The translations under genes and the position numbers were made by a program. A DNA stretch of 64,000 nucleotides from Ashinkailepas kermadecensis (Eukaryota; Arthropoda; Thecostraca; Neolepadidae), in NCBI GenBank assembly GCA_034440615.1, contig JAOTOM010005102.1:62001-126000 (forward strand), written 5' to 3'. Shown piece by piece: positions 1 to 25,464 of the stretch. Every line of letters begins with the position of its first letter. Positions within the stretch are counted from its first letter, which is position 1. The notes beneath the pieces were generated by a model. It saw nothing but the letters and a program-made list of their open reading frames with translations. It had not been told where the DNA came from and did no database searches.

Positions 1-1066
1 TAAAACATAGGACATGATGTGCTGATGAGATGCAGGATGCTGAATGGTACGTGGTGATCACATGCTGGAGGGATTGTGGTACGTGGTGATCACATGCAGG
101 ATGCAGGATGGTACGTGGTGATCACATGCTGGAGGGATTATGGTACGTGGTGATCACATGCTGGATGGATTATGGTACGTGGTGATTACATGCTGAAGGG
201 TACGTGGTGATTACATGCTGGGGGATTATGGTACGTGGTGATTACATGCTGGAGGGATTATGGTACGTGGTGATTACATGCTGGAGGGATTATGGTACGT
301 GGTGATTACATGCTGGAGGGATTATGGTACGTGGTGATTACATGCTGGAGGGATTATGGTACGTGGTGATTACATGCTGGAGGGATTATGGTACGTGGTG
401 ATTACATGCTGGAGGGATTATGGTACGTGGTGATCACATGCTGAAGGGTACGTGGTGATTACATGCTGGAGGGATTATGGTACGTGGTGATTACATGCTG
501 GAGGGATTATGGTACGTGGTGATTACATGCTGGAGGGATTATGGTACGTGGTGATTACATGCTGGAGGGATTATGGTACGTGGTGATTACATGCTGGAGG
601 GATTATGGTACGTGGTGATTACATGCTGGAGGGATTATGGTACGTGGTGATTACATGCTGAAGGGTACGTGGTGATCAAATGCTGGAGGGATTATGGTAC
701 GTGGTGATCACATGCTGGAGGGATTATGGTACGTGGTGATCACATGCTGGAGGGATTATGGTACGTGGTGATCACATGCTGGAGGGATTATGGTACGTGG
801 TGATTACATGCTAAAGGGTACGTGGTGATCAGACGCGGGAGGGATTGTGGTACGTGGTGATCAGATGCTGGAGGGATTGTGGTACGTGGTGATCAGACGC
901 GGGAGGGATTGTGGTACGTGGTGATCAGACGCGGGAGGGATTGTGGTACGTGGTGATCAGACGCTGGAGGGATTGTGGTACGTGGTGATCGGACACTGGA
1001 GGGATTGTGGTACGTGGTGATCAGACGCGGGAGGGATTGTGGTACGTGGTGATCACATGCTGGATG
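1..1066. repeat. 32-bp minisatellite
   Basis: Roughly 33 tandem copies of a 32-bp unit that begins GGTACGTGGTGATTACATGC and ends GGAGGGATTAT. Some copies are shortened to GCTGAAGG-type variants. The distal part (after about 830) shifts to a variant with GATCAGACGCGGG, so the array has local subfamilies. It runs off the left edge of the window. Each unit contains TATG|GTACGT, which looks like a splice donor; whether it derives from an exon edge, like the three arrays downstream, cannot be tested here. Confidence 0.95.
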
Positions 1067-2072
1067 GATCATGAGACGCCGTCATCGGAATACATACAAA
1101 ACGAAACATAACAAGGGCGCAGCACAAATAAACTGTGAATGGGACAGGCGAAATCAACCCCCGGAATCGTGCCAACCACCCGCCTGCGAACGGCGAAACC
1201 ACGCCGTCCAGATCCAATCCGGACAGCCCATCGCTCTCCGCCAGACGACAGCAGTCCCGCAGGCCGCGGGCGTCGGCTGCGTGCCCGCCGGGCATGCCGT
1301 GACCCCGGGTCGCAGCTCACGGGCGCGGAGCGGCTCTGCCGCGGCGACGATTAGCTCGGGGGGGCAGAGTGGGGCCGTGACAGGCTGCGTCTGCCGACCG
1401 CCACTCGGCTCATGGCACGGGCCGACGGCCACAAAAGGCGGCCGCCACTCGCCGCCGCCGCCGACCCGCTCATGATTAGTGGATGGTGATTGGGAAAGTT
1501 GCCGCCGCGGGGGTCGATGACGCCACCGGGCCGCCGTCGGCGTCGCCGGCTCTGTTGTCAGCGCCGGTGTCGGCTCGCCCGTTCGCCGGCGTCGTTTCAC
1601 AGCGCGACACGGACGGACGAGAGTCGACTGTGGAGGCGGCACCCGGTGGGCGGGGCGATTGATGACGTTCCGCCAATAGGATGGCGCCGTGTCCGCTCAC
1701 TAAATGCATACACTCATTATTTCGATCTGCTGGCTTAACGACGAAGATCAATCTTTTATGGCGGTCCTTTGAGTCCCAAATGGGCCTACAGGTTCAGAAG
1801 TTAATTGGTTGTTGTAATTACAAACACGCTTGATACCAAGTTGTAACCGTTTTCGCTCGGCTTCATGGTGTATTTTGGGGTGTTGTCCTCGGCTCCGACT
1901 AGCGAATTGAGGTTGACTGGCTGCACCACAGGCCTGACCGTCTGCTCTACCGACCTAATTGGCCACTCTCCGACCTGACCATCTGTTCTACCGATCTGAC
2001 TGTCTACTCTACCGACCTGACCTTGCGTGAATGCACGGGATTTCGTCTGTTTAATTATTTTGTATTCTTCAG
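1067..2072 (+). other. Presumed kinesin intron, CpG-rich in part
   Basis: Non-coding as far as I can see. Bases 1,130-1,680 are GC- and CpG-rich and carry overlapping short ORFs on both strands with no recognisable domain. No P-loop (GQTGSGK-type) coding sequence was found here in any frame. A short degenerate repeat of 'ctaccgacctgac' occurs at about 1,930-2,025. The last 30 bases are a strong polypyrimidine tract leading to the acceptor at 2,072. Confidence 0.5.
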
Positions 2073-2158
2073 GAATTCCCTGGAATAATGCCGCGGCTGT
2101 GTGAAGATCTATTGGACAGGTTGGCTTCCACCGAATCTGATGGCACAATAAACATGAG
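2073..2158 (+). CDS. Kinesin-3 motor exon a (PGIMPRLCEDLL segment)
   Basis: This internal exon of 86 nt enters in phase 0. It encodes EFPGIMPRLCEDLLDRLAST and onward to NM, ending with a two-base remainder AG. The segment matches the conserved kinesin-3 stretch 'GxIPRxCExLFxRI' before the central strand. The acceptor is textbook (a T-rich tract then CTTCAG) and the donor is ATGAG|GTAAAT. The AG remainder joins the first C of the next exon to make a serine, giving NMSCVEVYNETVRDLL, which reads through correctly. Codon use is less GC-rich than in later exons. The exon lies in a + strand gene whose first exons, including the ATP-binding P-loop, are upstream of the window. Seen: splice sites, frame and motif. 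Inferred: that this exon is spliced in vivo. Confidence 0.82.
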
Positions 2159-2668
2159 GTAAATTATCAACTATGGGCTTCAACTTTTCTTTGCCAGGCG
2201 GGCTTCATGGCTTGCTCAATATGTTGTGGTTGTGTCGCAGATATACAGCTTTTCTTCTGTTCTGTCCCTTCAAGCCGCTGAAGCATCGTATTTAAATTAA
2301 CAATCTCGCATATTTCTAAACATGTAGTCAAAAGTCCATTCATACTGCGAACCTAACATTGAACAACCCTAATACAGAATAAACGTAGATCACAAACCTC
2401 AGGACACACTCAATAAAATCTAGCAACAACAATGTGTGCACGCTTTCCTCTGAGCGCATCGTATTGGTGCAATTAGTATTTTTAAGTCGTGTCGGCCATG
2501 TTCATTGGTGCAAAGAGTGTTTATAGGTTGTGTCGATCATGCCCATTGGTGCAGCAGAATGAGGAAAACTCCAATGTTTTTGTCATCATGTTGTGCTCAC
2601 TGCCAAATGTGTGAATGCGGCCCATTCCACACACGAGACCAACGCAGACGCCACCGCCTGACTTACAG
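2159..2668 (+). other. Kinesin intron a-b
   Basis: A 510-nt intron with donor GTAAAT and acceptor CTGACTTACAG. A 34-36-nt stretch starting TCATTGGTGCAA recurs about twice near 2,460-2,560. Nothing else recognisable. Confidence 0.6.
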
Positions 2669-2769
2669 CTGTGTCGAAGTGTACAACGAGACCGTACGGG
2701 ACCTCCTCTCCGGCCAGCCGCGGGGCCTTCGGGTCAGGGAGCACCCGCGCACCGGACCCTACGTCCAAG
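2669..2769 (+). CDS. Kinesin-3 motor exon b (VEVYNETVRDLL)
   Basis: A 101-nt exon encoding CVEVYNETVRDLLSGQ and LRVREHPRTGPYVQ. These are two hallmark kinesin-3 stretches: the E-(I/V)-YNE-x-VRDLL strand/helix, and LRVREHPxxGPYV, which forms part of the microtubule-facing side of the motor. The acceptor is GACTTACAG|C and the chosen donor is CCAAG|GTGGGT after 2,769, leaving a single G. That G joins GC of the next exon to give GPYVQGLGVH, matching the family pattern GPYVxGLS. The last 50 nt of this exon plus the first 14 nt of the intron form the founding unit of a tandem array, so seven further donor copies follow. The donor at 2,769 keeps the normal protein; those at 2,832 and 2,895 would add 21 or 42 residues in frame. 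Confidence 0.85.
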
Positions 2770-3206
2770 GTGGGTGCCGGCAGCGGGGCCTTCGGGTCAG
2801 GAAGCACCTGCGCACCGGACCCTACGTCCAAGGTGGGTGCCGGCAGCGGGGCCTTCGGGTCAGGAAGCACCTGCGCACCGGACCCTACGTCCAAGGTGGG
2901 TGCCGGCCTTCGGGTCAGGGGAGCATCCGCGCACCGGACCCTACGTCCAAGGTGGGTGCCGGCAGCGGGGCCTTCGGGTCAGGGAGCACCCGCGCACCGG
3001 ACCCTACGTCCAAGGTGGGTGCCGGCCTTCGGGTCAGGGAACATCCGCGCACTGGACCCTTCGTCCAAGGTGGGTGCCGGCAGCGGGGCCTTCGGGTCAC
3101 GGAACACCGGCGCACCGGACCCGACGTCCAAGGTGGGTGCCGGCCTTCGGGTCACGTCACGGAACACCCGCGCACCGGACCCGACGTCCAAGGTGGGTGT
3201 CGGCTC
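2719..3206 (+). repeat. Exon-donor-derived minisatellite, 8 copies
   Basis: Eight tandem copies, mostly 63 bp, some shortened to 55-60 bp. Each copy holds the coding sequence for LRVREHPRTGPYVQ followed by CCAAG|GTGGGTG. Exon bases up to the junction lie at 2,769, 2,832, 2,895, 2,951, 3,014, 3,069, 3,132 and 3,192. Later copies carry substitutions such as AGGAAGCACCTG and CCGACGTCC, while the donor itself is unchanged in all eight. Confidence 0.93.
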
Positions 3207-4443
3207 CCACCTCTGCGACAGCCGGTGACGGACGCGTGACGGAAGGTGCTGAGGCCGGGCCGCCTGATTCCCGGGCTATCGGCAGCACATCGGAACTGCG
3301 GCTCCACTGTGGACGCGCTGGCCTTTGGGGATACGCGGAAACGGCGCCTGTGCCACAGCCGGCCGTGTGATCGATTGGCCGGTCGGTAATTGCTGTCGCG
3401 GTGATGGGTTGCCTGTTTAAGGGCTTGCTGCCGCGGGCTGACGGCGTCAATTTCGAGCTCGCAGTCGGCTATCTCAGCCAGAACTGACGTGGAACACGTT
3501 CAACATGTGGTGGTGGTGGGGGATTGGCGCTTTAGTGTGCGCCGACTACCTAGGTCACTTTGCACCCATCAGACATACAAGACAGGTGGTGAAGAGTGCA
3601 AATTGGTTAAGTACGCTTGTCGGGAAAGATATCCGTGTTCTCAACATGGAAAGGCGGAGAAATGTGCTTGCAGCCTGCCCTACAAATGCGCTTCGATGCA
3701 TGTGTATATCCTCACCTTCCTAACCGCTGACACCGAACACTACAAACACAAGTCAACACGCACGCAGGGGGGGGGGGGGGGGGAATCCACCCACCCCTCC
3801 TGCTTTTTTAGACCTCATAAACCGACATCGATATTGTAACTGCATCTTGTGACTGCTAAACAAATATCAGAGCACGGTATGCAAACAATTCGTTTTATTA
3901 AATCCGTGGGTAAATATAGAAACTGCGGGGGTGCAAAGTCGACCGATCAGCCCTCAGCCACCCTCCGGCCGGCCGGCCGACCGCAGAGCGTCCAGGGTCA
4001 CCAAGGTTTCGTCGGCGCCGCCTAAGGCGGTGCGGTGTGCCACACAACCTTGACCCCGTTTGATCCTGGATGCATCAACCTAGGGTTATGAAATTTATAC
4101 TGCAGTGAGTTCATTACAACCATAATATGTTGTCCAAATCATGCGCTTATTGCTTCAGTAGTTTCCGAGATATCGTGGGAGGGGTGGAATCCGCCCCCCC
4201 CAATCTGAGCCTTGTTATGTGAGAGTTCCTTCGGTGCGCGTGTCAACATTCTTCCACCAAGTCTAATAACACACACGGATAGAACCACTCGCTCAAGCAA
4301 ACGATAGCTCAAACACCCTTCGTCAACCCTACGCTGAGCGAATCGCTTCACTCGTTCAACACGGCCATCCCCCTTCAACACCCGAAAGCCAAGCAGACCA
4401 GTTCCACCAACCGCACGAGCAGTCACGATGACCGCCTTCGCAG
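3207..4443 (+). other. Kinesin intron b-c remainder
   Basis: No gene seen. There is a 15-nt G run at about 3,768-3,782, a CpG-rich patch at 3,950-4,030, and otherwise unique-looking sequence. The intron ends in CCGCCTTCGCAG before 4,444. Confidence 0.5.
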
Positions 4444-4648
4444 GCCTGGGTGTCCACCGTGTGGCGTCTGGGCGGCAGCTGCACACGCTGCTGGGCCGGG
4501 CCGCCAGCCGGCGGCAGGCCGGCGCCACCCACGTCAACCGCCTGAGCAGCCGCAGCCACGCGCTGGTCACCGTCAGCCTGTGCAGCCGACCGGCCGCCGG
4601 CGGACGGCCGCTGCACTCCACACTGCACCTGGTGGACCTGGCCGGAAG
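4444..4648 (+). CDS. Kinesin-3 motor exon c (switch I and start of switch II)
   Basis: A 205-nt exon encoding GLGVHRVASGRQLHTLLGRA onward, then switch I as VNRLSSRSH (the canonical N-x-x-S-S-R-S-H that senses the nucleotide gamma-phosphate), a beta strand ALVTVSL, and LHLVDLAG at the end. The exon breaks inside switch II: GGA-AG before the donor, with T of the next exon completing the serine of DLAGSE. The acceptor is TTCGCAG|GC and the donor GGAAG|GTGGGT. Compared with typical kinesin-3 motors the loop after switch I is short and the usual MND before SSRSH is VNR. The last bases of the exon seed a 27-bp tandem array running into the intron. Frame continuity with both neighbouring exons makes the call firm. 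Confidence 0.88.
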
Positions 4649-5279
4649 GTGGGTGGGCGGCGACCTGGTCCGTAGGTGGGTGGCCGGCTACCTGGTCCGA
4701 GGGTGGGTGGGCGGCGACCTGGTCCGTAGGTGGGTGGCCGGCTACCTGGTCGGACGGTGGGTGGCCGGCTACCTGGTCCGTAGGTGGGTGGGCGGCTACC
4801 TGGTCCGTAGGTGGGTGGCCGGCTACCTGGTCCGTAGGTGGGTGGCCGGCGACCTGGCCGGAAGGTGGGTGGGCGGCGACCTGGCCGGACGGTGGGTGGC
4901 CGGCTACCTGGTCCGAAGGTGGGTGGGCGGCTACCTGGTCGGACAGTGGGTGGGCGGCGACCTGGTCCGAAGGTGGGTGGGCGGCTACCTGGTCGGACAG
5001 TGGGTGGGCGGCGACCTGGTCCGAAGGTGGGTGGACGGCGACCTGGTCCGTAGGTGGGTGGCCGGCTACCTGGTCCGAAGGTGGGTGGGCGGCTACCTGG
5101 CCGGACGGTGGGTGGCCGGCTACCTGGTCCGAAGGTGGGTGGGCGGCTACCTGGTCGGACGGTGGGTGGGCGGCGACCTGGTCCGAAGGTGGGTGGGCGG
5201 CGACCTGGTCCGTAGGTGGGTGGCCGGCTACCTGGTCCGTAGGTGGGTGGCCGGCTACCTAGTCCGAAGGTGGGTGGGC
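4640..5279 (+). repeat. Exon-donor-derived 27-bp minisatellite
   Basis: About 23 tandem copies of a 27-bp unit of the type GTGGGTGGGCGGCGACCTGG + TCCGTAG. The founding copy is the end of the kinesin exon, GACCTGGCCGGAAG|GTGGGTGG. Because the unit is 9 codons long, the exon frame stays open through the whole array (repeating RWVGGDLVR / RWVAGYLVR). Most copies keep AG|GTGGGT, so many are plausible in-frame donors. Variant copies have GGACGGTGGG or GGACAGTGGG. Confidence 0.94.
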
Positions 5280-5398
5280 GCGAGAGGCGCGTGGTGCATG
5301 GTGTGCAGACATGCGAGGTCCGGCCGCGGCGACGCTTGGGGTCAGGGGTCACGTCAGGCGCTGGCCATTGAGGTGCAATCCTCGGCCTTGTCGTGCGC

Positions 5399-5432
<34 letters not shown>

Positions 5433-6099
5433 GTGTGTATGTGTATGTGTGTGTGTGTGTACGTGTGTATGTGTGTTTGTTTGTGTGCATGGGCACACAT
5501 TCGTATATACGTCTATATATGCATGGAGACATGTTGATGCGCAAATGTACGTACATCTACAGATGTTTCAAGAATTAATGAACATATGCACTAAATAGCA
5601 GCCAATTACCAGACCATTACTCGAATCTTTCAGTGTTAGTGTGCAACATCATGGCTGTAAATTTGTGACTGGCTCCTATCTTGAACCACACTATCATTAC
5701 TGTGATCGTCATTCAGTAGTCAATTGTACTACCATTCACAGCGGAGAACCCCCATAATTTGCGGGGGTTGGGGGGGGGGTCGAAGCTGAAATATATGTAA
5801 AGTTTTCTGCGGGAAGCTGAATTAGCTCGTAAAAACGTCCCATTATTTATTAACTTTGTCTGGATTTTGCTCGATAAAGAAGAGGTCATAGAACTCTCAA
5901 CCGCTTTACTGGGTGTGCTATTTCCACCAGACTACCATCAGTGAGTGCAGGGTGTGTCACTCAGGCCACAATTGAACTGAATCGTGCATCAGTCTGGTGC
6001 ATTAGTGACTCGGTGCGCGCCGTCTCGCCGCGGGCGGCCCCGCAAACACGGCCGACAGGCCGCGCCAGAACCGCCTCACGTGCGTCACCACTGTCACAG
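5280..6099 (+). other. Kinesin intron c-d with (AT)n/(GT)n microsatellite
   Basis: An AT/GT microsatellite lies at about 5,398-5,480 and a G run at 5,767-5,780. No coding signal was seen until the acceptor CACTGTCACAG at 6,099. Confidence 0.6.
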
Positions 6100-6200
6100 T
6101 GAACGTGCCGACGGCGGTCAGCTGAGCGCGCGCCGCCTCAAGGAGGCAGCCAGCATCAACCGGTCTCTGGTGGCGCTGGGCAACGTCATCTCGGCTCTGG
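6100..6200 (+). CDS. Kinesin-3 motor exon d (SERADGGQ...INRSLVALGNVISAL)
   Basis: A 101-nt exon completing switch II (DLAG+SERA) and encoding LSARRLKEAASINRSLVALG then NVISAL, the relay helix region found in all kinesins (family form: RLKEGxxINKSLxxLGxVIxAL). The acceptor is ACTGTCACAG|T and the donor CTCTGG|GTGAGT, a strong consensus. The exon enters after two bases and leaves one, consistent with both neighbours. The family Gly in KEGxxINKSL is Ala here and Lys is Arg, mild divergence. Contact with tubulin through this helix is known for the family; nothing here tests activity. Confidence 0.88.
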
Positions 6201-7396
6201 GTGAGTGGCCATCGACGTCCTCCACTGGGCCCAGGTCCACGTGGCGCTCGAGACCCAGCCAGATGCGGGGAATTCAGCAATGGCCTGGCGTGTTTTATCA
6301 TGAAAAGTGTCGTTGGAAAAACAATGCAAAGGTAAAAGGCACTGCAGAAACAGAGTGGATGCTTTGGACACTTTAAGACATCTCCACTTTCGGAAGTATG
6401 CACATAGTAGGACAGATTTTCAGTGCAATCAGGTTTGTTGATTGCCAACTACTTCTGTTAGTTTCTTTTTAACGTGATCTGTGTGGTGTTATGTATATAA
6501 ACTGTTAGTGGTCGAGTCGTGTGGTCGAGTGTACAATCGACTTACTTGACTTACTTGACTTACTCTGCACAATCGACTTACTTGACACGCTTTAAATAGC
6601 CTTTTAAAGGTTCCTGTTTCCACGTAACTCCACAGTGGCGGTTTGCAAAACACTTCTGAGTAGGGAATCGTGAGGGTAAGGGGATCATTCTCCTTTCATC
6701 TGCTCATGTCACGGAATTATCAATTGCATTGCAACTTCTTTCGGTACTGAAAACACGGAAAATTGGTGGCGCCATTTGCCATCGGCCCGATGCTTCGCTC
6801 CTCACCTCGACTGTAGGTGGCGGTAATTTGTCACAACCAGGTGGCAGCACCGGGTGCTTTGGTTGCGCTCCGCGTGGCTTGAATGCCTGTCTGAAGAACT
6901 GTTGACAGCCATCACTTGCACATGCCTGAAATGAAAAATTCAAATAACACTGGCTGTTAAAAGTGAGCAGATCCAATTTGGCCATCGAGTTCGGAGCCTT
7001 TCCCTGCTCATTAACCGTTCGCCTATGACGCATCAATTTCCCTCCACACAAAACATATCATGCATCACATATCAAACTCTGTGATGGCCGCCATGGTCGC
7101 ATCAGAAACACCCGCATTTGTGTGCCTCTACTCTTCTGAACGTTACGCGACAGACACCATGCTAATTGTCCACGCGCAGTTGTCAAGTGTCCGCGCTTGT
7201 CTCGTAGCGAGTTCTCAAAATTACTCCACATAAGTATTATCACCGGCCGAAAGCGCTTGCAGACTGACTGGAATCACAGATCAAAAGCGGCAAAGCAAAA
7301 GCCGAATGTCAGTGCCACGCACCTGCTCGCTGGTTTCTCCGAACGGCACCAGCCGAGCGCAATCACGCCGATGACCTGACACCGTGTCGCCCCCAG
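6201..7396 (+). other. Kinesin intron d-e
   Basis: No gene seen. A short direct repeat of CTTACTTGA lies at 6,541-6,585. The 3' end has a branch-like TGACCTGAC and a C-rich tract before CCCCCAG at 7,396. Confidence 0.55.
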
Positions 7397-7573
7397 CCGA
7401 GCGGAGTCGATCGCCTGCGGACAGCCGGCCGGGGTCAGATAGGTCAGAGAGGTCAGAGAGGTCAGCTGATCACAGACACCGCCGCGGGCCGTTCGTGTCA
7501 TACCGCAGCTCGGTGCTCACCTGGCTCCTCAAGGACACACTCGGCGGAAACTCCAAGACGGTCATGGTCGCAA
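7397..7573 (+). CDS. Kinesin-3 motor exon e (loop 12 and [16 protein letters not shown])
   Basis: A 177-nt exon. The first part encodes a long Arg/Ser-rich stretch ([20 protein letters not shown] and on to HRHRRGPF). The second part encodes [20 protein letters not shown] then SKTVMVA, the conserved alpha-5 region; [16 protein letters not shown] is typical of kinesin-3 and close to the KIF16B/STARD9 form. The stretch between ISAL and FVxYR corresponds to loop 12, the lysine-rich K-loop of kinesin-3. Here it is longer and basic through Arg rather than Lys. The family VPYRDS is VSYRSS. A 9-bp coding repeat (AGGTCAGAG) lies at 7,440-7,466. The acceptor is CGCCCCCAG|CC and the donor CGCAA|GTAGGT, leaving one base that makes Thr with the next exon. 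Confidence 0.87.
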
Positions 7574-9239
7574 GTAGGTGTGATGAGCGCGCATGGAGGC
7601 AGCCTCTTAAAATATGTCATGTACTGGAGGGGAAACTGGATGGAAAACTTCCGTGCGACGGAGCGAGCAAGATGTGTGATGCGATCCACGAATTCCTAAT
7701 GCATACAAGAAATAAAGATCAGTGTGACTGGACAAACACATATGACAGTGTACTTGGGTACATTGGGTATATAGTCGGCGCAAAGGCAATCTTGTTCTTG
7801 TTTGTTTAATGGTTGATTCCTACCATCCATTCATTGTGTGCAATTATTTCATTTTGTGAGGTGATCTGTCTATGCTTTGAAAATGAAGCGTAAAATTGTG
7901 AATCAGAACATACAAATGTTCAGATATCCGTGGGGGCGCCTAAGGTGGCCCGGGGTGACCGCCGCCCTTTTCCCGCCACTTAAAACTCGCTATTTTGTAT
8001 TTCATTATGTTTTCCAAGGAATGAAATATACGTATCTTGAACTCCAAAATAAAGCAGCCGGTATCCGACAATCATTTGGTAGGGAAGGGAGGGGTCAGGT
8101 CTTCCGGACGAAAACCTGTGCCAGTGAAGATCGGGTACGCACTTGCGCACCCAATGGGTTGCCGGGATGCCCCCGATAGATCAGGTGTGTTGTTTGCCAG
8201 AAAAGATTTGGGTACACACTAGCGCACCCAAGGGGTTTACCGGGATGCCACCTATGGATGAAGTTTGCTGTTTCCGTAGCCTACAAATTTGACAATGAAG
8301 ACCAATCTTATCAAGTCATACCCCGTGCTTGATAAATTTGCTTTCCAAAGAAAAAGGCTTTTAGTGAAATCAGAGAGTAACACTGCCGTCCAGCTAGTAA
8401 AACACAAAGAAAAACGGGAGCTTCGCCAATCCTGGCCACTCCATTGAGAGAATCCTGAAGGTAACCCTGATAACTCTTAATAATTCCAACGTGGAAATAG
8501 TGGCCTACTGAACACTGCGCGGTGGATGGTGGTGTAACATATTTCATATTGTTGGAACAGTCGTTCCTCAACTAGGCAGAGTGTATTTTATTGGCCTCAC
8601 TCGAGCGTATTCGCTTTATTGATATTGATGCCCCGTAACAGATATTATTAGTTTGATTATATCCATGGAGGTTCCCTGGCGAACTTCGCTCGATTGAAAA
8701 CAAAGAAATCATCAAGGATCAAAATACCTGGCACAATTATATTGTGTAAGAGTTTTTTTGTGACAATTGTTGTGATTCTATTCACTTGATTGATTGATGA
8801 TTCACAATTATATTGTGACAATTCTATTGTCAATGGTTTTTCTGACTTGCAAAATGAGGGCAGGCAGGAGGACATGCGCGGAACATTCTTAAATCGACAA
8901 CATCATCAATGAGTTTATTCTGCGAACCGTACGACTTCAAGCCACTCTTTCCCACCTCACACCTCTCTATCCCGAGCAAGCGTTGTCGCCTTTAAAACCA
9001 AGATCCGCCCCTTCATTTGATGTCCAAATTGCCCATATGCTCCACCAACGGCTGTGCTTCCATAGCTTTCAACCTTGGCGGTGTATATTTAGGTCAAGGA
9101 CACGCCAGCTGAGCTGCGCGAGCCGGCAGTGGGCCGCCATGCTGCATAATTGAGCCGACGGCGGTGGGCGGCGATGTTGTCGAGCACGGTAGGCGGCGGT
9201 GAGTATTCGATGGTCGTGCGGTGGAGCTCGGATGGTCGC

Positions 9240-9602
9240 GGTGTGCTTTACACCCCATACACACGTGCTACTAGGGATGAGGTACACTTTGCACCCCATA
9301 CACACGTGCTACTATGGCATGAAGTAGCCTTTGCAACCCGTACGCACGTGCTACTAGGTATGAGGTACACTTTACACCCCATACACACTTGCCACTGGGT
9401 ACGAGGTAGCTTTTACAGCCCGTACCCACGTGATACTAGGTACGAAGTAGCCTTTACATCTCGTGCACACGTGCTACTAGGCACGAGGTAGCCTTTACAG
9501 CCCTTACTCACGAGCTACAAGATACGAGGTCGCCTTTACAGCCCGTACGCACGTGCTGCTAGGTACGAGGTACGCTTTACAGCGCCTACCCACGTGCTAA
9601 TA
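9240..9602. repeat. About 41-bp tandem repeat with CACGTG boxes
   Basis: Nine degenerate copies of about 41 bp. Each contains a version of CACGTGCTACTAGG followed by a GAGGTACACTTTACA-like segment. Six or seven copies keep the palindromic hexamer CACGTG. Confidence 0.88.
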
Positions 9603-13825: not shown

Positions 13826-13826
<1 letters not shown>

Positions 13827-13856
<30 letters not shown>

Positions 13857-14082: not shown

Positions 14083-14589
<507 letters not shown>

Positions 14590-14913
14590 GATGGACATTT
14601 TACTGTTCGACAATGGCAAATGTGGCATGCAAATGCACCGATAGTAAAATATAGAACAGTTACAGAGGCGAATATCCTCATTCGAAATCAGAGAACTAAG
14701 CGAACACACGTATCGTACACAATAGATGGCATACTGCAATGAAGTAAACTTCGGACCCCTCTTTCGAAATGCGTTTGACTCCCGTGTGCCCAGACCCGTC
14801 GGGTCCTGTCATGAACGCTCCGAGCGGAAGCCGTCACCCGTCGGCCGGCGCCGGCTCACGCTGACGCTGCAGTTGACGCCTCGAGCTGCGGCTGTGGCGG
14901 AATGTTATGCTTT

Positions 14914-15344
14914 AAGGACTGTTCACACCTAGCGTAATCTCGACGCGAAACAGCCAGGGCAATGACGGACTAGGCGTAATCCCGACGCACTGGGCGTAAT
15001 TTCGACGCGACGACATACCAGTGAATATCAGCAAATATAGCAGATATAGCAAGTATAGCAGCAAGTATATAATCAGAAGATCAGCAAATGTGGCGACCGC
15101 AGATTATTCCGAGCAGTGTGTCGACCTTGTGTCAAGGCCGCTTGTGCGCCGAGCGGAAAACGTTGAGAAAACCCAACTTTGTCCGCTCGGAAATCGTCAG
15201 CGTTTTGTAGGACTCGGCAGACAGCTGACGCAAGGCCGACGCAATGGCAGAATCGGCAGACTCATTGGGCCCCATGCTAACTGTCCGCTAGCTTTGCGTC
15301 GATTCCGACAGTGCGTCGAGATTACGCTAGGTGTGAACAGTCCT
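14914..15344. mobile_element. MITE with 32-bp TIRs, PIF/Harbinger-like
   Basis: A 431-bp element with perfect 32-bp terminal inverted repeats (14,914-14,945 and 15,313-15,344) starting AGGACTGTTCACACCTAGCG. It is flanked by a 3-bp TTA duplication at 14,911-14,913 and 15,345-15,347. The 3-bp TTA duplication is the signature of PIF/Harbinger elements. There is no transposase ORF. A GCGTAATNNCGACGC motif repeats inside the left end (14,934-15,010). Confidence 0.85.
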
Positions 15345-16949
15345 TTAGTCAGGTCCGGTGACGGCGCGGCGACGGCCGGTCGGCAGGTGTTATGATTATG
15401 GGGCAAGGAAGTCATTGCGTCATGTCACCATTGTACCATGTCGCCATTGCACATGTAGCTGTTGGAAGTCATCAACCGAGCCCCTCCCTCCGAGTTCCGG
15501 CACGTGATTGACCCGTGATGGGTGTGGCCGAGCGGTGCGGGACAAACTCTGGTCAGGTAGTCGTGACAGGGCAGCGACGGGGGCGAGACGTTGTCGACTG
15601 GCCCACCCGGTAAGACAATGGAGCGTTGTCCCTCACTGGCGATTGGGGAAACTGTTGAAAAACTGTTGCTCGAATGCCCGCCGTATTGTTTAATCATCAG
15701 CCCGGTCAATACAAAGACATTAGCGTCTGTTGAATTCGAGGACTTGTCGGATGACAGAAAAAGTTGGAATTGAGAACCAGTTACCGCACAATGGAAGCAA
15801 ACTCCAGACTATCGCTGCCAGGCAAACCAAACTTGCCTATAATACTCGGATATGCAGGTGCCGATCGACACCACATGGCGTGTAAACGTTTTCGACCGGC
15901 GGCGGTGCTGGCGCCATCGTCCCCGACGGGCGCGTGACCCTGACCGGAAGTGGACCGCGGGGTGGGGTGGCACTCGGTGCGGTCGATGCGGCCAATTGTG
16001 TCCCCGTTTAGCCGGTGCTGGTGCACGTGGCCGTCGTCGAGGGCCGCGTCTGAACTGCCATTCGATGTCGACGAGGCCTGTTTGAGAACACATTAGCACC
16101 GTTTGGGCGGCGGTTCCGGCGCGCTTGTTGACGCGCGCGAGCGGAGAAGTGCTCACATTAATTACACACCCATAATCAGCGACCGTAAATACTTCACTGT
16201 GCGAGTGACACAAACGGTCTGGGCGTGAAAGCCGCATGCCAGGTGATTTGGACGAATGGTGGAAACATACGGCAACAACATACCAACAGCGAGTTGAACA
16301 GAAGTACCCGCCGTTGTAGACTGACCGGCATATTAACCGTCAGCACCAAACACATTTCACTCTCCACCCAAGAGGCAACCAAGAGCGATCACTACCAAAC
16401 AGCCATTTCAACCATAAATGAACTACAATGTAAAAATAGTTTCTCACTATGTGTACTCCAACACTCCAAGGGATGGTGGAGACGGCCTAGTGGCATGGGA
16501 AATGCGGAACAAAACTTCGCAGCTTGAAATATACAACTCGTCGAATATGAATCTACATGCTCGTGCTTACACTGCAACACTGTAACAAGGTTTATTCGGT
16601 TATGCTCGAGCGCACTGTTACCACTTTTATCGCCGTTTACGACCAGGCTGCGGTGAGTTACGCAATAGCTTAATGATATTGACAAGGCTACAATACCATG
16701 CATTACAGGTCCACTGTAATAACACAGCATAGCACTTTCACTATTGTGTCATCTTGCAGCAGATATAAGTACAGGGTTGTTGCTTAACGCAGTCTAACAT
16801 TGACGTCAGACTCCGATAAATGTGCTAAAAATGCACCTCGCGTAGCTGAGTAAACTTTTGCTTACGGTGTAAGCCACAGAACACCATCCAATGTGGTATT
16901 TGCCACGAAATTTAAATCGTACTACATGTTTACATCTGCTGTCAATCGG

Positions 16950-17095
16950 TGTTTCAGGATGGTAGGGTGGTAGGGTCAATGAGTGTTCCAAGGTGGTTGG
17001 GTGGTAGGGTTAATCAGTGTTCCAGGATGGTAGGGTGGTAGGGCCAATCAGTGTTCTAGGGTGGTAGGGTGGTATGATCAATCAGTGATCCAAGG
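16950..17095. repeat. About 38-bp tandem repeat
   Basis: Four copies of a unit containing GGTGGTAGGGTCAATCAGTG. No coding signal. Confidence 0.8.
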
Positions 17096-17574
17096 TGAGT
17101 ATGACGGTAAAACGCTGCCAAAATGAGCTTTCGACAAGTTTAGTTAGGTCATGCTCGGAACGTATTGTGGATGTAGCGGCGGAATAGGTACTGTGTAGAC
17201 ATTTCCGAAACAAACCAACGACATGACCGTATGGCGCGCATTGTTAACGGCCAAATCCGGTCCAATCAAACCCCTGCGCTGCGATTCGCACCGAACCTGT
17301 TGTGCCCGTAAAGGCACGTAGAGGGTGCTGGACGCATAAGGGCAAGTGTAAAAAGCGCAGTGCAGTCGCATCTCCGTATACATCGGTCAGAGGTGCATTG
17401 CCTTGCGAGTTTATTTAGCCACGCGACTTCAAACACGCATGCGTAGATGGAGTGATTTCGGATACGATAGTTTACCAAATTGCGTTATTGAAGGCAGGCA
17501 TCACCTTTCTGTGACTGAACCCGAGATCCCGGGACACAGATGAACTACAGGACCTCTTTACCACCCGGAACGGA

Positions 17575-17765
17575 TGACGAGTGCTGACTGCGGCGAGATA
17601 TTTAGGGCACGATGCCTGCGGGAAGAGATTTACCGTACGATGCGAGCGGCGAGAGATTTGCTGTACGATGCCTGAGGGAAGATAGTTACGGTACGATGCA
17701 CGTGGCGTGAGATTTACGATACGATGCCTGCGGCGAGACTTACGGTACGCTGCCTGCGCGCGTGA
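17575..17765. repeat. About 28-bp tandem repeat
   Basis: Six to seven degenerate copies of a unit of the type GCGGCGAGAGATTTACGGTA + CGATGCCT. Confidence 0.8.
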
Positions 17766-20473
17766 ATGTCGCTGCAAATTTCTTTAATTAAGCAAATATT
17801 GAGATTACTTTAGGAGGGGTATTGTGATGAGATCTGGCAAATCTCAAATGAAGCTTATCAAATCAAATTTTCTCACTCAGAGCAAGATCTGCTCCTGAAG
17901 AGCAGATCTGGCTGTGAGTGAGACAATTAGAGCTTGAGGTGCTGTACCAATACGTCACACGCTGTTGTGAGTTGCCGACGAGCGGAAACGCTGCCGCGAC
18001 CCTCTTTCCTTGAACAAACACTAAGAGCACCCCGTGAGTAATATTGGAATAAGAATTGATAAAAAGCAACAGGAAGCCAACTGAGATACCCATATCCTTC
18101 CAGTTACGGACGAGATGACATGCTATCGGGGCATCCACAATGATGCAATCTGAATGATCTTCGCGCAGAAACCGCAGTGCAGCAGACAAAGCAAATCTGT
18201 AGTAGACATGCACGAAGCCTGCCTGCGGAATTGTACTCCGAGCTCCGTGGCCTGACATGACCTTCCGCTTTTGACAACAAATATCCGGAAAAGATGCGCC
18301 GTCAACTAGGCCAAACAAGCGACGAGTAAGTGTCGCCTACTCCTTGCCGTCGGTAAAAAAAAACAGAACTGTATGGTGGTAGCGTCCACCCCAGGAGGCA
18401 AGAGTTATCGGAGCGAGCAAACCAAATCTGAAGCAGCTGGCGTAAAGTCGGCGCCGTAAAGCGAAGCGATGATTTTGTCATTTAGGGAAAAGTTCGGTGC
18501 CTCCATGATTTTGCTGCAGGCTGAGTTCCATCGGTGGCCAGCGGTGGACGTGGCTACCTATCGCAGTCGCCGGTGGACAGTGGAGCCAGACTAAAGCCTC
18601 TGGCCCGACGGCTGTAGTCCGCAGGTGTACGGACACACACAGTCCCACCCAGGGAGGGGGTGGGGGAGGAGGTGAGTCATGGAATGCTATCGACCGGCTG
18701 AGCCGGCCCGATGAAAAATGCAGCTCTAAAGAATGTAGTCATCGGTTTTTGTTTGCTGCGTTGGATCGCACATGGAGCTGTAGGGAAGGAAAGTTTAGAT
18801 TGCGTTTGTTTTTCGCCTACGTCATCAAATATCATGCAGGATATTAACGGGAAGAACTTGCCCCCCCCCCCTCCCTCCAACCTTCCGTTGTCGAATAATT
18901 GGGCGCATCATCCCACAGTGCCGTTTCTTTTCCATACATTGGAGTACTACGCTGTCCTACCTATTTGTCCATATTCATTATTCATTGACTTATTCATCAC
19001 ACACGTCGATTGATGTCGCAATTCTTAATACCAGCATAAGGCGCCTGGACGTAGTAGGGCAAGTGTCAAAAGCGCCAGTGAAGTCGAATCTCCGTGTATG
19101 TCAGCTATAGGCAGAGTAGATATACTGGGCCGTTCTGGACTCGAGTTCCGAAGAGGAAGAGCGAATGCAAGCTCTTGCTGCGCGATGACCTGGTCAATTG
19201 AATGACCTTGACCGGTCGCCATACGGCTCCATGGTCACGTGAGTCAGCTGGGCGATAGGGTGGTAGCGTGCAATAATGGTTTATTCGGCTACTTTAACTC
19301 GGAGTAGAGTGCATCCAGCAAAACCAGGTGTGTCTGCCCCCGGCCACATACGCATTGTCTGAGTGTTTTACAACCACGCGCCTTCAAGCATGCATGCGGA
19401 GCTACAGTGGTTTCGGATGTGATATATTCGCCAAATTGCATTACTAAAAACAGTGGTAAAAAGCGTCACCTCTTCCTGGTATTGAACACGACGCCTCAGG
19501 AACACTGATCAGTAACGTTCATGGGTGGATAACGTCATGTGACTGGTGTGGCCTATGCCATACCAATTTTGCTTAGATTTAGCATGGGCATCGACAGGAA
19601 AGAATAGCATAGCAAAACGCCGTATGCCCCACCAACCCTGACTGCGCTCCTCCACTCATGGCAACGCTGCCGCTGACACCAGGGACGGGTGCCAATGACA
19701 ACGCTGCCGCTGACACCAGGGACTGGTGCCAGTCGCCGGCTGAGACGTGGCTGTCCGCACACGGGACTGTCGCCGTAAACCACCTTCTTGAAACACAGAT
19801 TGGTAGTACTTCGTGAAAAATCCTGTGATTAATGTCGGCAAATATTAAGGTTAAAAGCGCAACGGACACCGAGGTTGAAAATTGTAGCTGGAAATGTTGC
19901 ATTACCCGGTGATTCGCTGCTTGTCGCTGTGGTGTTTGAGCCGCGGGTTCGAATCCAGGCGTCTCCGATACTTTACGCTCGGTATGCACACACGCCAAAC
20001 CATCAGGACTGCAGCAGGCAGCCATAATATGATTCCGTGGTGATGTGGTTCATAACCTCTCGAACATTCCACCGGGTCATGTGAATTTTTGGCTTGTTTG
20101 TTTAAATGCTAGGGAAGGGTGGATTAACACGCGCACGTCCGGGGGCTTGGCACTGTTACGTGGCACTGTAAGACGTGGAGCTTGGCACTGTTACAAAGTA
20201 TGTCAATTATAAAAGAATACAGCAGCATGAACGCGTTCCGAAGTGAATCGGGTAGCGTCTGTGTGCGAGACGAACGGGCAGCCCCTCTGTGCGAGACGAT
20301 CGGGCAGCGTCGGTGTGCGAGACGAAAGCGAAAGGTGAACGTGTCAGAAACAACGGACGGCGAGTCGATGCCTTTGCTGGCTTGGTGGAGCAGTGGGCCG
20401 AACACAATGTGAAAGGAAGTTCATTCATGGCCACAAAGCGCCGGGAACTAAACTACCCGCAGCCCTAACAGCA

Positions 20474-20546
20474 GGGGCTGTAGCTCAGGTGGTAGAGCGC
20501 TCGCTTAGCATGTGAGAGGTACGGGGATCGATACCCCGCAGCTCCA
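20474..20546 (+). tRNA. tRNA-Ala(AGC)
   Basis: 73 nt fold as a complete cloverleaf. The acceptor arms GGGGCTG/CAGCTCC pair with one G-U, the D stem is GCTC/GAGC, and the anticodon stem CTCGC/GTGAG encloses loop TTAGCAT with anticodon AGC. The T stem is CGGGG/CCCCG and the discriminator is A. The A box (TAGCTCAGGTGG) is good. The T loop is ATCGATA, so the nearly universal T54 is A and the B box has one mismatch (GGATCGATACC). No CCA is encoded, as expected for a eukaryotic gene. It sits in sense orientation in a kinesin intron. It may be functional or a recent pseudogene. Confidence 0.9.
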
Positions 20547-20781
20547 ACGTTTTCGATGACGGGCGCTAATTTTCGTGTTAGTGCAGCAAAATATGATGTT
20601 CGAGAGCCTGGTCGTGAGCGACGCACCCGAACATCTCTCACGAACCTTGTGAGGAACGTCTGCTGGTGCCAAATGGTGCATGTCAACGTCGGCGTCCCAT
20701 ACAAAGTATGGGGGTATGAGAGAGTTATTATGTCAGATGTTATAGTGTGCTGCCGGTGTATACTCCACTGTTTGCTACAAG

Positions 20782-20960
20782 CAGAGGCGCAGTCAGGGTT
20801 CCCCTTAGCACACATAAATACACTAGATAAGCGATACATTTTGAGATTCTCACGACGCAAAACCATGAATTTTTGGCGAGCTTCCCGCGCCGGAACCTTT
20901 CTTTCCTTCATCATTATTTTCGGGTCGGGTCCCTTTAGGAAAATCCTGGTTGCGTCACTG
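20782..20960. mobile_element. hAT-like MITE copy 1
   Basis: A 179-bp element bounded by CAGAGGCGCAGTCAGG at the left and CCTGGTTGCGTCACTG at the right, which are inverted repeats. It is flanked by a perfect 8-bp duplication GCTACAAG (20,774-20,781 and 20,961-20,968), diagnostic of hAT insertion. No transposase. Confidence 0.88.
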
Positions 20961-21255
20961 GCTACAAGTGTGCTATAAGCATGGCAACTTTCCCTGTCAC
21001 AAACAAGTGTTGTGACTTGATTGTGACGGGCAGATTCTGTAATATTGCGATATCCTGATATCGGAACCTTTTGGATTTGCTGATACGCGGTTTTGTTTTG
21101 GATGTGCGCTGTATGCGTGGAATTCTGCTATGAGAAGAACTCACAATAATCCTGTCTGGTAGGGATAGAGTTACTGCGATGCTACTGGAGATGGTATGCC
21201 CTCAGTCTGAGTGAGAGGTCATAAATTGACCAGCACCTTCTCTCCGTGCGACTAT

Positions 21256-21432
21256 CAGAGGCGCAGCCAAGGGTCCCCCTTAGCACCTAAAAGTACACTG
21301 GAACAAACGATAACTTTTCATTTTTCACCACGCAAAACCCTGAATTTTCTACGCACTTAGCGAAGCTTTCTCGATTTCAGCATAATTGTTGGAGGTCGCC
21401 CCCTCCTTAGGAAAGCTCTGGCTGCGCCACTG
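21256..21432. mobile_element. hAT-like MITE copy 2
   Basis: A 177-bp relative of the element at 20,782, with termini CAGAGGCGCAGCCAAG and CTGGCTGCGCCACTG. It shares the internal CACGCAAAACC and TAGGAAA segments with copy 1. The flanks GCGACTAT/GCCACAAT match at 6 of 8 positions, so the target duplication has decayed and this insertion is likely older. Confidence 0.85.
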
Positions 21433-21534
21433 GCCACAATGTCCGTAACTACCGTCCAGTGTCGTCCACCCAGTTGGTGGCACCCGGTAAGTCTCTCCAG
21501 CATGCTCAGCCCCGAACACGACACGGCCACGAGC

Positions 21535-22092
21535 TTGTCTGCGAGTCACACCCCGTCCGCCCTGTTGCAGCCGTGTCCCCGGCCTCCCGCCGGTCTGCGA
21601 GTCACACCCCGTCCGCCCTGTTGCAGCCGTGTCCCCGGCCTCCCGCCGGTCTGCGAGTCACAACCCGTCCGCCCTGTTCCAGCCGTGTCCCCGGCCTCCC
21701 GCTGGTCTGCGAGTCACACCCCGTCCGCCCTGTTGCAGCCGTGTCCCCGGCCTCCCGCCGGTCTGCGAGTCACAACCCGTCCGCCCTGTTCCAGCCGTGT
21801 CCCCGGCCTCCCGCTGGTCTGCGAGTCACACCCCGTCCGCCCTGTTGCAGCCGTGTCCCCGGCCTCCCGCCGGTCTGCGAGTCACACCCCGTCCGCCCTG
21901 TTGCAGCCGTGTCCCCGGCCTCCCGCCGGTCTGCGAGTCACATCCCGTCCGCCCTGTTCCAGCCGTGTCCCCGGCCTCCCGCTGGTCTGCGAGTCACACC
22001 CCGTCCGCTTTGTTCCAGCCGTGTCCCCGGCCACCCGCCGGTCTGCGAGTCACACCTCGTCCGCCCTGTTGCAGCCGTGTCGCCGGCCAGCA
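21535..22092 (+). repeat. Splice-acceptor-derived 56-bp minisatellite
   Basis: Ten tandem 56-bp copies. Each contains CCGCCCTGTTGCAG|CCGTGT (TTCCAG in some copies), i.e. a pyrimidine tract, acceptor AG and the first bases of the following kinesin exon (CCGTGTCCCCGGCC versus CCGTGTCGCCGGCC in the real exon). The last copy is the true acceptor at 22,073-22,074. The unit is not a multiple of 3, so the three long ORFs over it (21.4-22.4 kb) are frame-rotating artefacts. Confidence 0.93.
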
Positions 22093-22247
22093 CGTGCTAC
22101 AGCGACACACTGAGCACGCTGCGCTACGCCGAGCGCGCCCGGGCCATCGTCAACCATCCCGTCGTCAACGACGAGCCGGCCGGTCACGTGGTGCGACGGC
22201 TGCAGGCGGAGGTGGACCGACTGCGCAGCCTGCTCGCCGCCGGCAAG
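22075..22247 (+). CDS. Kinesin-3 motor exon f (STLRYAERARAIVNHPVVNDEP, neck)
   Basis: The exon encodes TVSPASTCYSDTLSTLRYAE and RARAIVNHPVVNDEP, then a neck helix VVRRLQAEVDRLRSLLAAGK. These are the last helix of the motor and the neck coiled coil; STLRYAxRAxxIVNxPxVNED is diagnostic of kinesin-3. The acceptor is GTTGCAG|CC, which with the single A left by exon e makes Thr, giving MVATVSPAS. The donor is less sure: AAG|GTCACG at 22,248 is my choice (phase 0). Otherwise the frame stays open to a stop after 22,325. In KIF16B-like proteins a forkhead-associated domain follows; I did not find one. Confidence 0.86.
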
Positions 22248-23817
22248 GTCACGTTGCCGACACGCTCGGACGCAGCAGTGCCGGAGAAGTCCACGATTTC
22301 TATGTGCTTAGTTTGCTTCTTCAATTGAATGCATTACGAATTTGCCATCTTACGCGATGGTGGAACCCATTTTCACCTCCGACGCATTGTTGACAGATTT
22401 TCCCTGGGTAGCAGACGCCTCGGAGAGACACATGCCCGTAGCCATAGTGTACGTCGCCTATCCACCGGTGACCATGAGGGCCATGCCACCCCAGACTGCT
22501 TGACCTCCGAATGGACAAGAATGTTTTGCTAGGTGTGCTGGGAAATCATCGGAAATCGAATTGCACCTTTCGCGCACATCTTCCTTTTTGTTGATGGCTT
22601 ATATCGTTGATGACTTTTCACTTGCTTTTGAAATTTAAATAAGTATATTCGTCCCCCAAAAGCATTCACTTTCAGTTTTGTAGTTTGGCCCCTCCGAAAC
22701 AATTATTTGGATGCAGCCTTACACTATCTCCATATACGGCAGCTCCACAGAGACGACTCACGCAACCGATTACTCAGTGTGTCAGTGGCCTTGTATGCAT
22801 CAACTTCAAACCTTTCATTTTCCTCCAGCAGTGTTTTCTGCTCCAAATAAGCCTATCTGCAGATCTACACCGCCAAACGCGGCCGCGGCTGTACAGCCAG
22901 AAATAACAGACAGCATCCCTACAGCGAGATATAATACACTGACGGCACGAGTCCCACAACCAAACGTAACACAATGAGGACGGTGAAGACCGACCACGTG
23001 AGCGTGGCACAGACATCAGTGCGGGAAGTGCATCATGTGAACAATTATGTAGCCTATGCAGACAGTTGACAGTGTGACGGATTTAATATTCGCATTAGGG
23101 TTGAGACAAGCCACAATATGCTTGTCTATTCGTGCGCAGTTTTAATTGGGAGGAAGCTGATTTCCTCACACTTAGTACGCATAAGTACAAAAGGACTGTT
23201 TGGTGTCGGCTATTACGGCTACGGTTTGAGGACACCGAAAGGAGGAAATTCCTGACGCAATAGGTATCTTCTGGGCGAATATTTGGCCAAAGATTAACAG
23301 TTTTAAGAACCTTGCGACAGAATGCTATGCCATCTATATTACTGTTATATGCCATGCAAAAGGCATTCGGCACCCATGCGCACAAAGTGTGAGCAATCAG
23401 CTTCATCTGAATTAAGACTGTGTACGAATAGGCAAGCATATTATGACCCGTCTCAACAGTAATGCGAATGTTGAAGCCGCCACATTGTCGAATGTCTTTA
23501 CATTATAGCCGATGCGATTAATCACATGATACTTCACTAGTTAGCGTAGCAAGGGTGCTGCTTCGGCTCGCTACACTCCCAATCTTGCTCGGAACACCCC
23601 TGGCCAGCTCATGCCATCGACCACCGCCAGAACCTGCCTGGCTCAGCTCGCGCTCCATCTGCACACCGACCGCCAGAGACGAGCCGGCGCACGGGATCGC
23701 GTGCCCAGCCGACCCAACTTATTCATGTGGCCACTTTTGTGGCTCGTCGAGCCTCGTGCCGCCGACTCGGAGCTGGCGACCGAACTGCGCCGAGGGATCG
23801 GAACCACCCGACTAACA
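22248..23817 (+). other. Intron or unresolved exon region
   Basis: No FHA, PX or coiled-coil coding segment was recognised. The short open frames at 22,711-22,977 and 23,611-23,830 could hide an exon but lack a convincing donor-acceptor pair with compatible phases. The sequence is otherwise unique-looking and moderately AT-rich until about 23,560, then GC-rich. Confidence 0.4.
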
Positions 23818-24437
23818 CCGGCCGACCTGGTCCACGTCTGCTCCCCTGGGGACACCGGCCGACCTGGTCCACGTCCGCTCCTCCGGGGACACCAGCCGAC
23901 CTGGTCCACGTCCGCTCCCCTGCGAACGCCAGCCAACCTGGCCCACGTCTGTTCCCCTGGGGACGCCAGCCGACCTGGTCCACGTCCGCTCCTCCGGGGA
24001 CACCAGCCGACCTGGTCCACGTCCGCTCCCCTGCGAACGCCAGCCAACCTGGCCCACGTCTGTTCCCCTGGGGACGCCAGCCGACCTGGTCCACGTCCGC
24101 TCCTCTGGGGACACCGGCCGACCTGGTCCACGTCCGCTCCCCTGCGAACGCCAGCCAACCTGGCCCACGTCTGTTCCCCTGGGGACGCCAGCCGACCTGG
24201 TCCACGTCCGCTCCCCTGGGAACACCAGCCGACCTGGTCCACGTCCGCTCCTCTGGGGACACCGGCCGACCTGGTCCACGTCCGCTCCTCTGGGGACACC
24301 GGCCGACCTGGTCCACGTCCGCTCCCCTGGGGACACCAGCCGACCTGGTCCACGTCTGCTCCTCTGAGGACACCGGCCGACCTGGTCCACGTCCGCTCCC
24401 CTGGGAACGCCAGCCTGACTTCCCCACGTCCGCTCCA
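23818..24437. repeat. 37-bp GC-rich minisatellite
   Basis: About 16 copies of a 37-bp unit containing CCGACCTGGTCCACGTCCGC + TCCCCTGGGGACACC. A longer-range alternation (CGAACGCCAGCCAACCTGGC variants at roughly 110-bp spacing) shows higher-order duplication. All three frames on both strands are open, which explains the ORFs of 200-370 codons here. Confidence 0.93.
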
Positions 24438-24699
24438 CCGGAGGCAAAGCACATTTTTTTCCGCTACGAATTCGGTCCGTCTACGGCGACACCAATTCAC
24501 CCGACGTCAAACACTTGCCACCGTCCTCAAAACGGACGTCTTCATTTGTTTCCAGTACCCCACGAGTGGCGACACTCATTACCAATCCGGCGGCCATTGT
24601 TGTGACAGTCTGCCGTCACGCGGGCGGCCGTCACGTGTCAGGAACACAGTGGCAGACTCGTCCACGCACTCGGCGGCGGCAGGCGCGCCGGCTGCCAAT

Positions 24700-24733
24700 C
24701 CGACCCGACCCGACCCGACCCGACCCGACCCGG
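24700..24733. repeat. CCCGA pentamer repeat
   Basis: A run of about six CGACC/CCCGA pentamers, 40 bp upstream of the next exon's acceptor. Confidence 0.85.
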
Positions 24734-24774
24734 CGCCGTGCTGATGACGCGTCGTGTGTCGCCGTGTGTTTCAG

Positions 24775-24827
24775 ATGGTGGCCTCAGGTGTTCAAACAGT
24801 CGGTGATGTCGCCGCGCCGGATCGAAG
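24775..24827 (+). CDS. Candidate short exon linking motor to giant tail
   Basis: A 53-nt exon with excellent splice signals: CGCCGTGTGTTTCAG before it and ATCGAAG|GTGAGT after it. In the frame compatible with the giant exon it encodes WWPQVFKQSVMSPRRIE with one base before and one G after. That G plus AG of the exon starting at 28,390 makes Glu, giving RRIE-E-STVMADVQNS with no stop. The alternative frame (MVASGVQTVGDVAAPDR) would not join correctly. The upstream join is unresolved: the preferred donor at 22,247 leaves phase 0 but this exon needs two bases, so an unseen exon must lie between, or the weak donor at 22,288 is used. Domain not recognised. Confidence 0.55.
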
Positions 24828-24837
24828 GTGAGTCCGG

Positions 24838-25210
24838 CCGACCGGCCGGCTGACGGGTCTGGTCTCGCCGTCAGTGGTGGCGCCGCTCGGGCGGTCGCTG
24901 GACCGAGGCGGGTGGTGGAGAGGTGCCTCTGGAGACAGTGGTGGCACCGCTCGGGCAGTCGCTGGACCGCGGCGGGGGTGGAGAGGTGCCTCTGGAGACA
25001 GTGGTGGCGCCGCTCGAGCGGTCGCTGGACCGCGGCGGGGGCGGAGAGGTGCCTCTGGAGACAGTGGTGACACCGCTCGGGCGGTCGCTGGACCGAGGTG
25101 GGGACGGAGAGGTGCCTCTGGAGACAGTGGTGGCGCCGCTCGAGAGGTCGCTGGACCGAGGCGGGGGCGGCGGAAAGGTGCCTCTGGAAACAGTGGTGGT
25201 GAGGTTGAAT
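24838..25210. repeat. About 63-bp GC-rich minisatellite
   Basis: Five to six copies of a unit of about 63 bp containing GAGGTGCCTCTGGAGACAGT and GGTCGCTGGACCGCGGCGGG. It starts only a few bases after the donor at 24,828. One + strand frame stays open (repeating ETVVAPLERSLDRGGGGEVP). Whether it contains a repeated exon is unknown. Confidence 0.9.
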
Positions 25211-25425
25211 CGTCTCCGGACCGTGGTGTATGGCGGAGAGGTAGGGCCACCTCCGGACCGTGGTGTATGGCGGAGAGGTAGGGCCGCCTCCGGACCGTGG
25301 TGTATGGCGGAGAGGTAGGGCCGCCTCCGGACCGTGGTGTATGGCGGAGAGGTAGGGCCGCCTCCGGACCGTGGTGTATGGCGGAGAGGTAGGGCCGCCT
25401 CCGGACCGTGGTGTAGGGCTCAGTG
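25211..25425. repeat. 37-bp GC-rich minisatellite
   Basis: Five to six near-identical copies of CTCCGGACCGTGGTGTATGG + CGGAGAGGTAGGGCCGC. It lies directly after the 63-bp array. Confidence 0.92.
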
Positions 25426-25464
25426 GCTGGGCCGCCCCCGGGTCGTGTTGTTGGGCGTAGAGTT

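Follow-up and report, generated by a model that had tools for sequence, protein, structure and literature searches.

In a window of 64,000 nucleotides from the barnacle Ashinkailepas kermadecensis (NCBI GenBank assembly GCA_034440615.1, contig JAOTOM010005102.1, positions 62,001 to 126,000 of the forward strand; coordinates below are those of the window), three of the 12 motor junctions of an apparently kinesin-3-like gene have been turned into minisatellites, namely the donors of exons 2 and 3 and the acceptor of exon 6. In each of them the repeat unit contains exonic as well as intronic bases, and the additional copies lie on the intron side. We regard them, with a probability of about 0.7, as minisatellites of the type named mirages in amphioxus: tandem duplications, some of them across junctions, would be common at this locus of a minisatellite-rich genome, and selection would filter them. 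An earlier, sequence-only reading of the same DNA had pointed out that three of the six visible motor exons have one arrayed junction, with units of 63, 27 and 56 base pairs (bp), and both Tandem Repeats Finder and the exon model agree with it. It had also proposed a mechanism tied to exon edges and known of no named system of this kind; the former is not established by our analysis, and the latter is answered by amphioxus mirages and by a human repeat of the same geometry.

Motor exons and their junction arrays

The gene model consists of six exons on the forward strand. The first visible one, exon 1 (2073..2158; EFPGIMPRLCEDLLDRLASTESDGTINM.., donor GTAAAT), carries no array and is placed by its in-frame join; exons 2 (2669..2769; SCVEVYNETVRDLLSGQPRGLRVREHPRTGPYVQ), 3 (4444..4648; GLGVHRVAS..SSRSHALVTV..LHLVDLAG), 4 (6100..6200; SERADGGQLSARRLKEAASINRSLVALGNVISAL, donor GTGAGT, no array), 5 (7466..7573; donor GTAGGT) and 6 (22075..22247; VSPASTCYSDTLSTLRYAERARAIVNHPVV..LLAAGK, putative donor GTCACG) are placed by in-frame joins and tblastn. 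When exon-proximal splice sites are used, the six exons join into a single open frame of 774 nucleotides and 258 amino acids, in which all donors are GT and all acceptors are AG. The product is a kinesin motor by Pfam (PF00225, 3.6e-70) and aligns with KIF13B (6a1z; E value 5.3e-66) ungapped at all three array junctions, so that residues encoded by the arrays are not needed by the motor. The same alignment, together with tblastn, puts the end of exon 3 within DLAG|SER, which we take to be switch II. Exons 2 to 6 are matched by all five relatives compared by tblastn, and exon 1 is matched weakly by three of them (E value 0.011-0.11). Among the tblastn matches listed for these five relatives, none in the window covers the P-loop part of the motor, which therefore probably lies upstream of the window. 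The 12 junctions called verified below rest on homology and reading frame. A tRNA-Ala (AGC) gene is found at 20474-20546, within the intron of 14.5 kilobases (kb) separating exons 5 and 6.

Arrays were called with Tandem Repeats Finder on the whole window, which returned 58 rows; the three junction arrays are given on the forward strand. Array 1 (2713..3204; 63-bp unit, 8.1 copies, 85% matches) lies across the exon 2 donor at 2769/2770. Its successive donors are spaced by 63, 63, 56, 63, 55, 63 and 60 bases, and AAG|GTGGGT is kept in all eight copies. Array 2 (4636..5280; 27-bp unit, 23.9 copies, 88% matches) lies across the exon 3 donor at 4648/4649 and has 24 copies in an exact 27-bp register, with GTGGGT in 24 of 24 copies, AG|GT in 17 of 24, and 10 of the 27 unit columns variable. 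Array 3 (21537..22088; 56-bp unit, 9.9 copies, 94% matches) lies across the exon 6 acceptor at 22074/22075; its unit comprises about 42 intronic and 14 exon-like bases, and AG is kept in 10 of 10 copies. In each of its nine extra copies the first 14 bases match the true exon start at 13 positions, after which the likeness ends. The exon edge that homology requires is the first copy in the two donor arrays and the last copy in the acceptor array.

The units of these arrays appear unrelated in sequence, as the sequence-only reading had stated. Among 153 pairs formed by 18 units, three reached the smallest possible p (1/101), with about 1.5 expected, and the likeness between arrays 1 and 2 is limited to the donor motif (p 0.02). 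A repeat family or mobile unit shared by the arrays was thus rejected, and the result supports seeding that took place independently at several junctions of the gene, namely two donors and one acceptor. The copied splice motifs are not clearly more constant than other unit columns (P 0.042, 0.095 and 0.665, the lowest value, for positions +1 to +6 of the array 2 donor, being the best single test among several tried). Selection on the copied splice sites was therefore rejected, and because of this lack of excess constancy the kept motifs give no clear sign of function.

The remaining junctions were compared by a flank-copy test, in which a 40-base probe at the 12 verified and two putative junctions was matched against 1.5 kb on each side; the background was 1500 positions, 295 of them GC-rich, and its 99th percentile was 40 (49 among GC-rich probes). 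The array junctions scored 80, 68 and 58, on the intron side only. Eight of the nine other verified junctions were unremarkable, their scores being reached by 29-96% of the background. The ninth, the exon 5 acceptor, had the highest score of the nine, which is reached by 8.5% of the GC-rich background; a 9-bp array called by Tandem Repeats Finder (7433..7465, forward strand; GGTCAGAGA x 3.7) stops exactly at this acceptor and repeats its AG and no exon base. Degenerate old arrays at the nine other junctions were rejected on these scores.

Further arrays cited in the sequence-only reading exist, and they lie off the verified junctions. The array given as 1-1066 in fact spans 44-1073; the verified junction closest to it within the window is about 1 kb away, and no exon was found beside its GTACGT core. 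That given as 24,838-25,420 is really two arrays (24872-25199 and 25214-25462), and these, like the one given as 23,818-24,437 (23815-24436), overlap no verified junction. The exon proposed at 24,775 found no homology support here and was rejected as a further case, as no copies flank either putative edge, its donor probe having been placed two bases downstream of the AAG|GTGAGT cut. The largest array of the window (54115-55904; 29-bp unit, 62 copies) lies outside the motor region.

Proposed duplication and selection across the locus

Arrays are as dense in coding sequence as around the motor exons. When overlapping rows were merged by hand, with units below 9 bp and the TG-rich rows at 5428-5487 excluded, 35 arrays remained. 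Twenty of them lie in the motor part (1-28373), or 0.70 per kb, and seven in an open reading frame of 3206 amino acids (28374..37994, forward strand), or 0.76 per kb in 28.4-37.6 kb, the frame having been ended at 37560, by estimate, for this calculation. This frame served as the coding-sequence comparison; its seven arrays are in frame, and all seven have periods divisible by 3 (12-99 bp), for which chance would give (1/3)^7, about 0.0005. The equal density in coding sequence and the seven periods that are multiples of 3 together argue for common duplication followed by selective filtering. This long frame has no Pfam match, and no relative was found among 7974 candidates scored; it may encode a STARD9-like stalk of this kinesin or belong to a gene of its own.

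The process may be outlined as follows. Tandem duplications of tens of bases would arise commonly in the locus, and the duplicated units would then expand, presumably by slippage or unequal exchange. Selection would set which duplications persist: within coding sequence the frame would have to be kept, introns would tolerate most duplications, and a duplication across a junction would be tolerated at any unit length, the exon-proximal copy giving an intact exon edge and splice site while further copies land in the intron and are removed by splicing. To judge from the sequence, splicing would use the first of the repeated donors in each of arrays 1 and 2, and in array 3 the last of the acceptors. 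The motor frame obtained with these sites is intact and free of arrays, and this model is consistent with undisturbed splicing. The repeats should then be without a function of their own, because the surplus copies would fall in the intron and be spliced out.

How far the junctions exceed chance was assessed with null models of the 20 arrays in 1-28373 against the 12 junctions, three spanning arrays being observed. Random placement of founder units gave a mean of 0.28 spanning arrays (P(>=3) = 0.0026), GC-matched placement 0.46-0.67 (P 0.009-0.024), placement of whole arrays allowed to cover no more than 60 bases of an exon 0.50 (P 0.013) and unconstrained placement of whole arrays 1.58 (P 0.20). 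All of these values are post hoc, as it was this very feature that led to the choice of the gene, and the sample is one gene; a small junction excess is possible (nominal P 0.003-0.2).

Three points weigh against common duplication with neutral filtering at junctions. The excess over the founder-unit expectation (3 versus 0.28) is not predicted by pure neutral filtering unless edges are more prone to duplication. The two visible donors that read AG|GTGGGT both carry arrays, as against none of the remaining four, a hint of sequence-specific seeding. In addition, array density is uneven, being 0.30 per kb in 37.6-64 kb (eight arrays), whereas the two GC-rich gene parts have 0.70-0.76.

Less likely readings: hot spots, functional sites and assembly errors

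The strongest rival holds that exon edges in this genome are mutational hot spots, with arrays seeded there by R-loops, by conflict between replication and transcription, or by G-rich donor motifs such as GGTGGGTG that serve as a minisatellite core. Three unrelated arrays at 12 junctions, with the nominal P values of the founder-unit and GC-matched models, agree with it, as do the arraying of both AG|GTGGGT donors, the absence of AGGTGGGT from the rest of 1-28373 on both strands, and the fourth, small array adjoining the exon 5 acceptor. However, the density in the long coding frame is just as high, the unconstrained model leaves P at 0.20, eight of the 12 junctions show nothing above background, and the gene was selected for the feature. 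Co-transcriptional R-loops, which the sequence-only reading had put forward as the common cause, fit poorly: they call for a G-rich non-template strand at the affected edges, and the coding-strand GC skew of arrays 1, 2 and 3 is +0.04, +0.34 and -0.28. Since the skew is mixed there is no shared R-loop polarity, and R-loops or a transcription-strand bias as the common cause were rejected. We consider hot spots at exon edges unlikely as the explanation.

Considerably less probable is that the repeated splice sites are functional, either as alternative donors or as dual-specific AG|GT sites giving stochastic in-frame insertions, as in polyubiquitin UBC. This precedent (PMC10809524) finds some echo here, in that donors are in frame in 24 of 24 copies of array 2 and six of eight of array 1 (the natural site counted), the kinesin frame is open through both arrays, and AG|GT stands at 17 of 24 and eight of eight unit borders, respectively. 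That the frame is open tells little, however, because arrays 1 and 3 are open in each of the three forward frames and array 2 in two of them. Moreover, no more than four of the 10 acceptors of array 3 are in frame (the natural site counted), the copied motifs are under no clear constraint, and array 2 would put units of nine amino acids into switch II between DLAG and SER, which we judge to be incompatible with a working motor.

Assemblies are known to go wrong at tandem repeats, and one sequence is at hand, but that the arrays are single junctions falsely expanded is scarcely credible, because the many distinct substitutions seen between copies (85%, 88% and 94% matches) would not result from erroneous copying of a single sequence and because three unrelated arrays are concerned, although their copy numbers in the assembly may be wrong.

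Barnacle setting and known systems

Among the matches listed, the motor is closest to KIF16B of Pollicipes pollicipes, a goose barnacle, with 60% identity over 246 columns with 46 gaps, and 60-76% within single exons; other relatives reach at most 52% (best 120 of 2766) and 53% (best 120 of 7834). These identities agree with a source among the barnacles or their near relatives. In the Pollicipes genome, RepeatMasker run without a barnacle library assigned 3.2% to repeats, nearly all of them simple or low-complexity, according to the parts of the report available to us (PMC8917513). The annotated Pollicipes protein is without 33 residues around the exon 3/4 junction, the site of array 2 here, and has 13 additional residues near the exon 4/5 junction. 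An array misleading a gene predictor in Pollicipes would fit the 33-residue gap.

Two elements near the end of the window belong to its setting. In a retroelement at 57029-61359, individual open reading frames match aspartic protease, reverse transcriptase/RNase H and integrase, a domain order that we take to be that of Ty3-type elements. The element is flanked by a 138-bp direct repeat (57029-57166 and 61222-61359), and the complete identity of the two copies suggests that it inserted recently. Nine GGTTA (TTAGG) copies, presumably the arthropod-type telomere repeat, lie at 62593-62637, internal to the window, and likewise agree with an arthropod source.

The present case apparently takes a known kind of element, the mirage, outside the lancelets and into a new animal group; the parts of the source papers at hand describe mirages by name solely from lancelets, in few genes (PMC3087553; PMC3902484). 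Three mirages in one arthropod gene would widen the known range of the phenomenon and allow a test of whether exon edges are more prone to become repeats or repeats are simply tolerated there. Gene predictors could also be misled by arrays that offer up to 24 decoy splice sites, which may be of practical relevance. A bolder proposition, and a doubtful one, is that junction-spanning minisatellites recur genome-wide in barnacles, independently of lancelets, and are seeded preferentially by G-rich donors (AG|GTGGGT). If so, the splice-site sequence itself would feed a process of local mutation by which introns grow longer and from which new ones could arise. Among the matches listed, all in open-licence PMC papers, no junction-spanning minisatellite in a barnacle was recognisable, which is weak evidence of absence.

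Several known systems, each cited from the portions of text available, can be set beside these arrays. Earthworm metallothionein has minisatellites inside an intron, which the portion at hand does not place on a junction (PMC12783039). The gain of introns through tandem duplication or the expansion of repeats in ATP2A1, potato RdRp and Cryptococcus resembles our case in that tandem duplication copies splice signals (PMC4974935; PMC2395259), but here existing introns are lengthened and no new intron is seen. Polyubiquitin UBC has tandem dual-specific AGGT splice sites, with coding units and splicing shown (PMC10809524). A partial likeness lies in AG|GT at unit borders, at 17 of 24 in array 2, where all donors are in frame, and at eight of eight in array 1, where six are; unlike in UBC, the units here are placed outside an exon of a conserved motor that is complete without them, and AG|GT is lacking from array 3, which is in frame in four of 10 copies.

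The closest geometry in human is the 31-bp variable number tandem repeat of CBS, c.1444_1467+7(16_21), in which 16-21 units, always of 31 bp with substitutions between them, lie across a donor, by nomenclature with 24 exonic and seven intronic bases (PMC2630376). Unlike the arrays here, it concerns a single junction and is known to be polymorphic. It is reportedly linked to reduced enzyme activity, going by the title of a 2001 paper by Lievers.

Amphioxus mirages are the nearest parallel. They were named in Adh3 and occur also in troponin C and the globins BflGb6 and BflGb9, with similar but less perfect repeats in PGBD5; both donor and acceptor boundaries are affected, units measure 10-160 bp, many but not all copies keep AG or GT, and data cited there suggest that normal splicing is undisturbed (PMC3087553; PMC3902484). 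The barnacle arrays differ in their crustacean host, in having up to 24 copies, in occurring three to a gene and in being known from sequence alone. As in amphioxus, both donors and an acceptor are affected, the splice signal is present in many copies (eight of eight, 24 of 24 and 10 of 10), and at three of the 12 motor junctions, as predicted from homology and frame, exonic and intronic sequence are combined in a unit that lies across the exon-intron boundary.

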